Positions 29,270 through 34,153 of a DNA stretch of 64,000 nucleotides are shown piece by piece. Position numbers and translations under genes: made by a program. A model generated the notes under the pieces. It was not told the origin of the DNA. It saw only the letters and a program-made list of their open reading frames with translations, and searched no databases. Source of the DNA: Deltaproteobacteria bacterium PRO3 (lineage in GTDB: Bacteria > UBA10199 > DSSB01). The stretch lies in assembly GCA_030263375.1 (NCBI GenBank), contig SZOV01000003.1, positions 1 through 64,000 of the forward strand, read 5' to 3'. The first letter of the stretch is position 1. Every line of letters starts with the position of its first letter.

Positions 29270-29297
29270 GATAAACCCCGGAGTGGGGGTTAGGTCC

Positions 29298-30101
29298 ATG
29301 GAAACACCGGAGCGCCCGGAAGAGTCCGGGCCGGCAGAGCCGCTGAAACACCGCATCCTGATAGTCCATCCGCCGGTCTCTATTTCCCAAGTCGATCTCA
29401 GCTCCCACGACATCCACCTCGTCCCCGACCTCGACGCCGCCGACGAAGCCGTCTCCTCCGGGCGTCCCAATATGGTCGTCCTGTTCGCCGATGACCGCAC
29501 CGCGGAGCTTGAGAACCACGTCATGACCTGGCTGGTGGAGGGCTTCAAGGGGAAGCTGATCCTCTTCGATCCCCACGAGACGATCGGCGACCACGGGGAA
29601 TTGGTGAGCGGCCAGGTCGTCGACGATTATTTCGCCGGCCCGGTCAGCGTCCATCGCTTCGCGACCATCCTCCAAAGCAAGGTGCTCCAAGGCACGCGCT
29701 TCGCCGCGCCGCGGGCCATGACCACTTACGACCTGTTTCGCAACCTCTTCGACCGGGGCCTAAGCGCGATCTTCTTCTTCACCGAGGCCTTGGACCGCTG
29801 CGTCGCGGCCAATCTCAAGGCGGAAGACTTGACCGGCCGCTCCTTCGCGGAGCTGAAGCGGATGGGGCTCGAAGGGCTCTGCGATGCGGAGGGGTGGGAA
29901 CGCGCGCTGCGCGCGATCCGGAGGGCGAAGCACCGTTATTTCGACTCGACGGGGGTCTTCGAGATCGTCGACCAAGCGGGGGACCGCAAACGCAGTGAGT
30001 TCAGTTGCGGATATTTCCCCTTCGGGCGGCGGCAGTTCGTGAAGATCGAGGTGCAGGCCCTCGACCGGGGAGGCCGCATGCAGGAACCGCCCCATCGCTA
30101 A
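29298..30101 (+). CDS. Receiver-like plus PAS-like signalling protein
   Basis: This 267-residue soluble protein has residues 15-135 looking like a CheY-type receiver (HRILIVHPPV, PNMVVLFADDR, GKLILFDPH). The usual acidic pocket is degenerate: no DD pair follows the first strand, and the central acidic residues lie in ADDR. Residues 145-260 resemble a PAS fold (GLSAIFFFTEALDRCVAANLKAEDLTGRSFAEL and FDSTGVFEIVDQAGDRKRSEF). No output domain follows. GGGGG lies eight bases before the ATG at 29298; the GTG at 29283 is rejected. Its stop overlaps that of the convergent patatin gene. Confidence 0.6.
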   Translation: METPERPEESGPAEPLKHRILIVHPPVSISQVDLSSHDIHLVPDLDAADEAVSSGRPNMVVLFADDRTAELENHVMTWLVEGFKGKLILFDPHETIGDHGELVSGQVVDDYFAGPVSVHRFATILQSKVLQGTRFAAPRAMTTYDLFRNLFDRGLSAIFFFTEALDRCVAANLKAEDLTGRSFAELKRMGLEGLCDAEGWERALRAIRRAKHRYFDSTGVFEIVDQAGDRKRSEFSCGYFPFGRRQFVKIEVQALDRGGRMQEPPHR

Positions 30102-31153
30102 AAAATCATCTCCGCCCCGATGCGCCGGAATTCCATGGGCACGGAGGCCTCCGCCGCCTCCATGACGCCGGGAATCAGGTCCAGGCTCAGCATGCCCCCG
30201 TTCGGAACGGTGATATTGAGATCCCAAAGCTCCACGTTCGGGTCCTGCCGGAGCATCTTCTTGTTGGCCTTGGTCGCCGCCTTGCGCATGTACTCCGCGC
30301 AGTTGAGCGACATCACCACATGCTCGAAACCGGGCAGCCGGCGAAACCGGCTGCTTTGCAGCAGGTTTGTGGAGACGAAGGCGGAGGGCTGGAGCGTGAC
30401 CGTGATCAGCAGGAGCTGCCGCGATTTTTCCACGCCGAACTCCTTGTCCCGGATCCACTTCTTGTAGACCGATTGAGTCGGAACGTCCTCGATCAGGGCG
30501 CCGTCGATGTAGCGGCGCTCGACCCCTTCGCCCCGGATGACTCGCGGCTCGAAGAGCACCGGGATTGCGCTGGAGGCCATCACCGCATCCAAGACATCGG
30601 TCCGGTAAACCTTGTCGGCGCCGTAGAAATCATGGGCCGGCTCGCTCCCCAGCACCTCGTTTTCCTGGGTCTCCAAATTGAAAGCCGTGCAAAAGAACCT
30701 CCGCTGAAAGCGGCGCCCCTCGAGGACCTTGCTCAAGAAGTCCTCCAGCTGCCGCTGATAATCCCGGAATATCTGGAGGCTCGCGCTTTGCTTCGAAAGC
30801 CCCAAGAGGTCCAGGAACATCCGCTTCGCCAAGGAGAGGTAGCCCGGAAGATGGCGGACGATCTTGCCTTTGAAGGCGACGCCGGCGATGCCCTTCATCT
30901 CCTCGGGACTCATCCCCATCGCGAACAAGGAGCCCATGATGGCGCCGCCGCTGGAACCCCAGACCTCCGAAATCCGCTCGGACACCCCCAGTTTGCCGAG
31001 GAAATCGAAGACCGCCGCGTGGGCGAACATCCTCACCCCGCCTCCCCCCAGGGACAGGACGACCTTCGTGTCCTGCTGACTCAGGCTATGACGCAGCAGA
31101 TCGAAATCGGCTATCTCTATCTTGCCGGGATCGCTTCCCACCCTTGCCCCCAA
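30098..31153 (-). CDS. Patatin-like phospholipase
   Basis: This 351-residue protein has the oxyanion loop VLSLGGGGVRMFAH, nucleophile elbow GSSGGA and the catalytic dyad aspartate in YIDGALIEDVP, so it should be an active serine acyl hydrolase of the RssA/patatin family. No signal peptide is seen. The homology supports a start near 31153 (TTG) or 31141 (GTG); the longer form is listed and the choice is uncertain. A palindrome TGAT-TTAT-ATCA lies 33-45 bases upstream of these starts. Confidence 0.88.
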   Translation of the reverse strand: MGARVGSDPGKIEIADFDLLRHSLSQQDTKVVLSLGGGGVRMFAHAAVFDFLGKLGVSERISEVWGSSGGAIMGSLFAMGMSPEEMKGIAGVAFKGKIVRHLPGYLSLAKRMFLDLLGLSKQSASLQIFRDYQRQLEDFLSKVLEGRRFQRRFFCTAFNLETQENEVLGSEPAHDFYGADKVYRTDVLDAVMASSAIPVLFEPRVIRGEGVERRYIDGALIEDVPTQSVYKKWIRDKEFGVEKSRQLLLITVTLQPSAFVSTNLLQSSRFRRLPGFEHVVMSLNCAEYMRKAATKANKKMLRQDPNVELWDLNITVPNGGMLSLDLIPGVMEAAEASVPMEFRRIGAEMIF

Positions 31154-31390: not shown

Positions 31391-34153
31391 ATGCGCCTTG
31401 ATACCAGAGCATTGTTGGATTCCGCGCGCCGCGAGTGGAATTCCCTGAATTCCGAGGTCGATCCCATCCTTTATTGGGAGGGCGCCTTCGGCTTAGCCGC
31501 CCGCCAAGAAACCAGTGGCCATCTCGAAATCGCGACTTCGGTATATTTCGAATTATCGGAGAACGCCGCGGTCCCTGCCGGCCTGCGCCGCCGGGCCCGC
31601 GAACGCCTGGAAGTCCTCCAAGGGGGCGGTTCGCCCTCGGCTCGAGCCGAGCACCTGCTGCGCCACTTCGTGGAAACCGCGGCGGATCCCGCCGCCCTCA
31701 TGGCCATGACCACCGCTAGCATGGTGTTTGGCGCCGCGCGCTTGGGATTTCTGGCGCGGCTCGCCGGTGCGGAAGCCGCTCCATGGACCCGGGGCTTCCT
31801 GGGCCGAACCGTGGCGGCAAGCGGCGCCTTCCTCTTGGAGGCCCCCGCTTTCACGCTGACAGCGCGGCTCGGCAACACCCTCCTGGGCAGGCCGCAAGAA
31901 TGGGATGCCCGCAGCCTGGCACGGGAGCTAACCTCCGCATACCTGACGCTCGGAGGCCTGAAATTGGGCCTCGCGGGCGGCCATGCCCTGCATCGCGCCC
32001 TGGGCGGAGTTTCGCAGCGCGGCCTCGGTTATCAGGTATTTTTCCAGGGCGGCATGCTCTCGGGGCTCCGCCTCGGGCATGGATTGGAAAACTACTTCGG
32101 TTTGAGAGGGCCGGCACTCGACTCGAACCCCTGGATCGACTCCCTGGCGACCCTGCTGCACTTCAACGTGGCAGGCCGCCTGATGAACGGGACCTTCGGC
32201 AGCTTGAGAGCCTGGCAAAATATTTTGGAGGCAAGAAGCGAGTCCCTTGGCGCTCGGCAAGCCCTGTTCATGTCCGTTAAATTTCCGGATCCCCCTCTCC
32301 TCCCCGCCGGCGCGGCCTGCGGCACCGAGGCCGGCACCGTCGCGGCCTCGACCCGTCTAGAACCGCAAAGACCCCCTGTCTCCCTCCACGAAACGGGGGG
32401 AGAAAAGCCTACGCCGCTTGCGGCGATTCGAACCCTTCCCGACAAGGCGACGAATCCCCTTACCGAACCACCAAGCGAAACCGCCTCTGTGGAGGAATAT
32501 CCGCAACTGATCTCCGAGTGGGGTGACGCCTTCATGGAGCAGAGCCGGTCCGTCCTCGGCCGTTTTCTTCCGGAGCTCCGGCGTTTGAACGAAAAAATCT
32601 CCGGAGGCGCCACCCTGATCTCGAAAGAACATCGGCGATTGAGGGGATTTTTGCGGACGGTCACGGCCAGACTCGAGGCCTTCCACGGCCATTGGGATAC
32701 CTTGCGAAGTCGCCGGAGGCATTCCGACCCCTTGGGCTCAAGAGATAACAACTCGCGAGAGAGATTGCGGCTGGTCCTTCACGATTTGCAATATCGGACC
32801 GAACCCTTGACGATGGCCAAGCTGGCCCTCGAAACCGTTCTGCTCGGCAATCCGATTCGCCCCTACCAACAGGCCTACTTGTTTTCCCCCGGAAGCGGCT
32901 TTTCCGCCTCGGGGGCCATCCGGGACGGAATCGCGAGAGCCAGCGTGGATACGCCCGAGGTCTTTCAATGGATCGGACGGGAATGGCATCGAGATTCCCT
33001 GGATGATCTTCGCTTCGCCGCGGGACGCGATACGACAAAAATCGCCGGGGACATCGTCGCCAACCTCGTCGCCAATGCGGCGCGCTATCGCTCTTCCGAA
33101 CGACCCCTCATTCGCATCACCGCCGAACCTTCCGGCTCCGGCGGCCTGAGGGTCACCGTTCAAGACGACGGCATCGGGATCCTTCCGGAACATCTCGCCA
33201 CGCTGGGCGAAAGCGGTTTTCGCGAGGGGCGAAGGGACATCGCCCGATCCCAAGGGCTAGGCTTGACCTCCGTCATCGCGGGCCTCCGCTCTCTAGGCTG
33301 GGGCCCTCTTTGGGTAAGCAGTCGTCCCAGCGAAGGAAGCCGATTTCGCTTCGAAATACCCGCCGCTGCCTTCCTGGAAACCCCGTCCCCCGAATTCCAG
33401 GGCAAAACCGCAGAATCGGCACCGGAGAGCTCTTTGGAGGGCAATTTGCGCGAGGGCTTCGTCGTCCCCGCGGCGTCGTTGGATCTTGCCATCCGGCAAT
33501 TACTTCGGGAGCTGCCGAATTCCCGCAGCTCCATGTACGCGGCGGTCGCGGCAGGATCTTCCCGTATCCAGTCCTTGGCGAACGGTGAATGGCGCCACCG
33601 CCGGCTGGAAGCCCTCCATAGGCTGTTGGCGACCGGTCGAAATATGCAGGACCTCGAAGTCGTCGAAAACGGCCCGGGAGTACTGTTGGACATCGCCGTC
33701 ACCCTGGCCTCTTTGGGAAGCCGCATCCGAGTCAAGGATGTCGACGGCCTCTCCAGCACGATTTACCAGGCGATTTTGGAAACCGATATTCCGACGCCCC
33801 TCCAAGAACGGATATCCATCACCCCCCGGAACGAGCTGGATTTGGCCGGTGCCGCGGACATCGCCTATTGGGCCAACCCGGAACCCTTGTTCCTGCATCG
33901 ACTCGCCGCCTCGAGAAGCGAGGGATATTTGGGAAGAGACGTCCGGCCAGGAGGCTATCTGGTGATTCAAACAGACCATCGTCCAACGCGTCATCCCTCG
34001 GAGACAATCCGCTCCAGCCTCCCCCGTTTAGACCCCTCGCATTGGCGCGAAATTTTCGACGGCCCCCTCCCAAACCTTCCTTTGGACTCCAATGCCGTCC
34101 TGCCGACGGCCCAGGGGCCCCATCTCCACCTGCAAGTTTTTCAAAGGCGATGA
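31391..34153 (+). CDS. Histidine-kinase-type ATPase fused to methyltransferase-like domain, 920 residues
   Basis: Not recognised as a named family. Residues 1-90 are helical and repeat-like. Residues 95-265 carry several hydrophobic, alanine/glycine-rich helices that may enter a membrane. Residues 300-370 form a low-complexity linker. Residues 375-480 are a coiled helical region with LHDLQYRTEPLTM, reminiscent of the HisKA H-box (candidate H464). Residues 545-658 are a GHKL ATPase with N-box DIVANLVANAARY, G1 QDDGIGI, an F-box-like GESGF and G2 SQGLGLTSV. Residues 746-865 resemble a class I methyltransferase core (VVENGPGVLLDIAVTLASLG, VKDVDG, RPGGYLVIQTDH). AAGGA precedes the ATG. The gene is monocistronic. 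Confidence 0.75.
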   Translation: MRLDTRALLDSARREWNSLNSEVDPILYWEGAFGLAARQETSGHLEIATSVYFELSENAAVPAGLRRRARERLEVLQGGGSPSARAEHLLRHFVETAADPAALMAMTTASMVFGAARLGFLARLAGAEAAPWTRGFLGRTVAASGAFLLEAPAFTLTARLGNTLLGRPQEWDARSLARELTSAYLTLGGLKLGLAGGHALHRALGGVSQRGLGYQVFFQGGMLSGLRLGHGLENYFGLRGPALDSNPWIDSLATLLHFNVAGRLMNGTFGSLRAWQNILEARSESLGARQALFMSVKFPDPPLLPAGAACGTEAGTVAASTRLEPQRPPVSLHETGGEKPTPLAAIRTLPDKATNPLTEPPSETASVEEYPQLISEWGDAFMEQSRSVLGRFLPELRRLNEKISGGATLISKEHRRLRGFLRTVTARLEAFHGHWDTLRSRRRHSDPLGSRDNNSRERLRLVLHDLQYRTEPLTMAKLALETVLLGNPIRPYQQAYLFSPGSGFSASGAIRDGIARASVDTPEVFQWIGREWHRDSLDDLRFAAGRDTTKIAGDIVANLVANAARYRSSERPLIRITAEPSGSGGLRVTVQDDGIGILPEHLATLGESGFREGRRDIARSQGLGLTSVIAGLRSLGWGPLWVSSRPSEGSRFRFEIPAAAFLETPSPEFQGKTAESAPESSLEGNLREGFVVPAASLDLAIRQLLRELPNSRSSMYAAVAAGSSRIQSLANGEWRHRRLEALHRLLATGRNMQDLEVVENGPGVLLDIAVTLASLGSRIRVKDVDGLSSTIYQAILETDIPTPLQERISITPRNELDLAGAADIAYWANPEPLFLHRLAASRSEGYLGRDVRPGGYLVIQTDHRPTRHPSETIRSSLPRLDPSHWREIFDGPLPNLPLDSNAVLPTAQGPHLHLQVFQRR

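Follow-up and report, generated by a model that had tools for sequence, protein, structure and literature searches.

The 64,000-nucleotide stretch of DNA analysed here (the window) encodes a protein of 920 amino acids in which an initial annotation recognised a GHKL ATPase followed by a Rossmann-type, methyltransferase-like C-terminal domain. This locus raises the question of whether a histidine kinase core and a methyltransferase have been joined in a single polypeptide, and of what such a protein might do in the cell.

Domain architecture of the 920-residue protein

The ORF, in the forward strand, starts with an ATG at position 31391 and stops at 34153, and is organised as follows:

31391..34153, + strand: whole protein, comprising header, linker, DHp-like helices, HATPase_c and methyltransferase-fold domain
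31391..32287, + strand: N-terminal header domain (residues ~1-299), predicted to be all-helical and common to 78 ORFs of the same genome
32288..32497, + strand: variable, Pro-rich linker (residues ~300-369), with few gap-free matches to the paralogue
32498..33043, + strand: DHp-like region, with helices 371-404, 411-444, 453-484 (containing H464) and 506-520, deduced from predicted secondary structure and H-D conservation
33050..33367, + strand: GHKL ATPase, HATPase_c (residues 554-659)
33440..33478, + strand: conserved connector motif EGFxxPxA (residues 684-696)
33581..34150, + strand: class I methyltransferase-fold domain, as predicted (residues ~731-920)

In Pfam searches, the whole protein matched only HATPase families, with HATPase_c (PF02518) giving an E value of 4e-17, and the boxes typical of these ATPases are intact (N-box, D554-Y566; G1, DDGIGI, 592-597; G2, QGLGL, 621-625). 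Upstream of them, the segment LHDLQ (residues 463-467) places H464 98 residues before N562. The initial annotation had proposed H464 as an H-box-like histidine, and this was supported by comparison with nine divergent homologues, mostly sharing 23-43% identity with the window protein in this part of the sequence: eight of them contain an H-D dipeptide 88-94 residues N-terminal to the N-box Asp, and the exception, L128, where the ATPase closes a protein of 2208 amino acids, lacks the dipeptide altogether. This conserved spacing is the best evidence for a functional H-box, in which H464 would be the likely phospho-acceptor. A profile of the kinase region also retrieved structures of HK853 from the PDB (E 2e-12), with the H464 segment aligned by HMMER downstream of what we take, by its numbering, to be the catalytic His of that kinase.

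The surrounding helices are predicted to form a DHp-like pair that is only partly canonical. Two long helices precede the one carrying H464, the helix after it spans just 15 residues, and no Pfam match to HisKA was found in the protein. Since this last helix is shorter than in a textbook DHp, the designation of the protein as a sensor kinase is tentative; its ATPase core is of the histidine kinase type, but the membrane sensor that the name implies is not supported. The hydrophobic helices described upstream of the core do exist, yet they are part of a compact, all-helical predicted domain without convincing transmembrane segments: in a simple hydropathy scan, as opposed to a trained predictor, the best 19-residue Kyte-Doolittle mean was 1.40, under the usual threshold of 1.6, which is exceeded in only five of 59 members of the header family. 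We thus rejected transmembrane sensor helices as an explanation for this region, and consider that the N-terminal helices are not convincingly transmembrane.

The absence of an adjacent response regulator, already pointed out in the initial annotation, was confirmed. The neighbouring ORF at 29283-30101 (+), of 272 amino acids, gave a single Pfam signal, a weak one to PAS (E 0.05), and did not match any receiver model, so a role for its product as a partner is unsupported. The window copy and its paralogues do not have any neighbour gene in common either. Directly upstream, and divergently oriented, we found a gene for a patatin-like phospholipase (30098-31153, -; Patatin, E 5e-24).

These features allow a different reading of the core, as a GHKL ATPase working as a molecular switch, either MutL/Hsp90-like or anti-sigma-like, with ATP binding and hydrolysis opening and closing the methyltransferase and H464 having a structural role. 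The short second DHp helix, the lack of a linked response regulator and the existence of a homologue without the H-D dipeptide (L128) would all fit such a switch, but the spacing between the H-D and the N-box is fixed in the other eight homologues, and the best matches in both sequence and fold are histidine kinases, which leads us to regard this possibility as somewhat unlikely.

After the ATPase, the connector EGFxxPxA is present as well in several homologues that end at that point and do not contain a methyltransferase. The C-terminal domain contains the motifs VVENGPG (757), VKDVD (781), IAYWANP (824) and GGYLVIQ, and did not match any methyltransferase model from Pfam or NCBIfam; likewise, profile searches of the PDB with the methyltransferase alignment yielded only sub-threshold matches (CmoM, E 0.23). 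The assignment was settled by a fold search. An AlphaFold model of residues 370-920, built with 13 related sequences (mean pLDDT 79.9, pTM 0.73), was compared to the PDB with Foldseek, retrieving histidine kinases and class I methyltransferases in one list at E<1e-3. The former included LOV-HK (8a6x), ZraS (9jfj) and HK853, as whole kinases and with modest TM-scores, and the latter DsyB (with SAM), NNMT, TehB and a halide methyltransferase. Both domain calls of the initial annotation therefore stand, and the predicted model indicates that the C-terminal domain is a class I methyltransferase fold, which would bind SAM and act on a substrate.

Across relatives, motif I is reduced, keeping E/D-x-G with variation in the later glycines (ENGPG, DNGPN, DNGPA), while other features are conserved by position: an acidic residue at the end of each of beta1 and beta2, a GGxLVxQ strand and, where motif IV would lie, [YAF]Wx[NHS]P. 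The reduced motif I and the lack of a matching methyltransferase model in Pfam would be in agreement with a catalytically dead domain that senses SAM or SAH, which would make the protein an ordinary kinase with a ligand-sensing tail. Nevertheless, the positional conservation of the other motifs and the occurrence of stand-alone copies in other genomes, better suited to an enzyme than to a regulatory appendix, make this quite improbable.

Relatives of the kinase-methyltransferase fusion

The fusion is not restricted to the window, a recurrence that had escaped the initial annotation: we found it again in the same genome, in two congeneric genomes, with one copy broken, and in one genome of another family. 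The copy in the same genome, L031, is a full-length paralogue with 37% identity over the full length, and has an orthologue (L130; 83% identity) with conserved flanks in a congeneric genome. In L131, from another congener, the methyltransferase half is shortened and out of frame, and it may correspond to a broken gene or to an assembly error. In L123, which comes from another family of the class, the kinase-methyltransferase order is the same and there is no header. In the rest of the class the halves are separate, four genomes having the methyltransferase by itself and two the ATPase. A scan of contigs with the whole 920-residue protein did not retrieve any relative. A profile of the fusion gave no match in 201 genomes of another phylum, in a search that had no positive control; the alignments behind this profile do find matches inside the class. 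Our literature searches produced nothing close to such kinase-methyltransferase fusions or to a header family of this kind.

Comparison of L031 and L130 yielded dN/dS values of 0.22 overall, 0.21 for the header, 0.17 for the HATPase and 0.22 for the methyltransferase, indicating purifying selection on all parts of this pair. That the fusion could be a by-product of a header recombining freely before arbitrary genes, and devoid of coupled function, agrees with the presence of the header before dozens of unrelated C-termini but is very improbable, given the kinase-methyltransferase junction without header in L123 and the purifying selection over all domains of one orthologue pair.

We also considered, and rejected, that the fusion might correspond to a two-gene ATPase and methyltransferase operon in relatives. 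The genes upstream of three stand-alone methyltransferases differ, coding for an ammonium transporter, a protein with no clear Pfam match and a sigma-54 activator, so there is no conserved operon. Separately, in an ATPase relative at L132:5904-7364, the segment with the F-box and G2 lies ahead of the strand segment that normally precedes it, as if the order had been permuted or rearranged inside the domain.

The N-terminal header family

The most unusual part of the protein is the header, which was missed in the initial annotation and represents a larger point than the fusion. Searching the whole genome with the 920-residue protein, residues 1-300 recurred in dozens of places, and a header HMM identified 78 ORFs in the retrieved regions of this genome, a gene count that is approximate because some ORFs are fragments at contig ends. 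These ORFs total 71,000 residues, make up 6.0% of the 3.55-Mb assembly and include 15 adjacent pairs on the same strand.

The header is about 280-300 residues long and its AlphaFold model, using 59 paralogues as input, is compact and contains eleven helices (pLDDT 91.9, pTM 0.82). It had no match at E<=0.001 among structures from the PDB and viral structure models, no convincing match in PDB profile searches and, across the 59 members, Pfam E values never below 0.04. We provisionally consider its predicted fold as new, in a comparison that covered the PDB and viral models.

Among 46 genomes of the class, five from the same family carry from 41 to more than 53 copies each of the header, which is absent from two other genomes of this family (73% and 82% complete); beyond the family, we found six copies in one genome of the same order and one or two in two other families. 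The header has undergone a massive expansion in a single family of the class and is sparse outside it. A scan with a closer subset of headers retrieved relatives in MAGs that were submitted under the name Deltaproteobacteria (isolates SJ577 and a Lac Pavin bin), and the 201 genomes of another phylum contained only one marginal match of 61 positions.

The 65 C-terminal parts found behind headers are mostly unrelated to each other, matching 54 Pfam families, with many others lacking a Pfam match. They include enzymes, such as multidomain acetyl-CoA carboxylase, fungal-type FAS beta (FAS_N, SAT, AflB-like), ketosynthase and aminotransferase, together with sigma-70, a type III restriction helicase domain, PAS-kinases, FHA and an amino-acid permease; Pkinase, GGDEF and PALP also appear in the tally. 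For instance, L035 (G000:C62) and L057 (G000:C78) contain tandem clusters of eukaryote-like multidomain acetyl-CoA carboxylases (with ACC_central) and fungal-type FAS beta, all of them bearing headers, and an ORF with a header fragment in L038:1293-3803 (G000:C53) has sigma-70 regions 2, 3 and 4 fused to an amine oxidoreductase domain.

A palindromic mini-element also lies in frame within genes that encode headers, where it adds peptides such as VGANLGPH...GSPL. It is composed of GTAGGGGCGAACCTTGTGTTCGCCC with its inverse, and there is a shorter form, GTAGGGGCC..GGCCCCTAC. Its arms occur about 95 times in the genome, compared to 0 for a reversed-pattern control, and examples are found in L041 (G000:C108), L035 (G000:C62), L034 (G000:C98:957-1023) and L042 (G000:C42). 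This element recalls the Rickettsia palindromic elements.

Possible mode of action and comparison with known systems

We propose, with about even confidence, that the window protein is an orphan, cytosolic or peripheral, histidine kinase-like enzyme with an ATP-driven core centred on H464, a coupled methyltransferase and a docking header. The protein would be soluble or peripherally bound, and its DHp/GHKL core would bind ATP and autophosphorylate H464 in a dimer. The conformation or phosphorylation state of the core might then gate the SAM-dependent methyltransferase or, alternatively, the methyltransferase might control the core, while the header would be a lineage-specific docking or assembly domain taking this and ~80 unrelated proteins to the same place or partner. 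We infer in this way the autophosphorylation, SAM binding and catalysis, the coupling between the halves, the substrate and the docking by the header; the coupling of kinase and methyltransferase is suggested by their fusion and shared selection, and by nothing else. Several observations weigh against this proposal: no response regulator is adjacent and no neighbour gene is common to the paralogues, the helix following that of H464 is short, H464 aligns downstream of the presumed catalytic His of HK853, motif I is reduced, and in four members of the class the methyltransferase is found apart from the ATPase. Its main rivals are the pure ATPase switch and the dead, SAM-sensing methyltransferase.

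A broader role can be envisaged for the header, as a recruitment tag of new fold with which one bacterial family would bring ~80 enzymes, transporters, sigma factors and kinases to a common structure, for instance a compartment not described so far or a scaffold at the membrane, with the kinase-methyltransferase being one of its regulators. We see this as unlikely; if true, it would represent a new kind of system. In any case, a kinase core fused directly to a methyltransferase and maintained by two families of the same class would couple phosphorylation and methylation signalling in an unusual way, and our results raise the question of why the same domain of ~280 residues is present on proteins that account for ~6% of a genome, among them fatty-acid synthesis enzymes and sigma factors.

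The window protein shares with the HisKA/DHp-HATPase_c sensor kinases HK853 and ZraS, its best PDB matches, a GHKL ATPase in which the N, G1, F-like and G2 boxes are present and a conserved H-D in the upstream helical region. It differs from them in its non-canonical DHp, in having no recognised sensor or clear transmembrane segment and in carrying a C-terminal methyltransferase where those kinases have a receiver or nothing. The methyltransferase domain resembles TehB, NNMT, DsyB and halide methyltransferases in its predicted beta-alpha order and fold and in having acidic residues at the ends of beta1 and beta2, but it does not belong to any Pfam family and has a reduced glycine motif, [YAF]Wx[NHS]P and GGxLVxQ motifs that are particular to it, and the fusion to a kinase core.

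Methyltransferases are also joined to signalling modules in CheB-CheR-PAS-HK proteins, and the domain order of the CheB-CheR-HK type is opposite to that of the window protein. A further example is CheR-TPR, a chemosensory methyltransferase fused to a signalling module (PMC3447774). CheR/CheB fusions and the window protein thus have in common the combination of methyltransferase and signalling modules, but the 920-residue protein does not contain any CheR or CheB Pfam domain and its methyltransferase family is unrelated to them by Pfam. As for the header family, the arrangement of a single N-terminal header with many C-terminal payloads is known from polymorphic toxins and from the cargo-loading peptides of organelles; here, in contrast, the payloads include housekeeping-type enzymes and regulators, and the header comprises ~280 amino acids with no known relative. 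In all, the C-terminal half of the protein, a kinase core with an unusual output, is a variation on a known theme, and it is the header family that is stranger.
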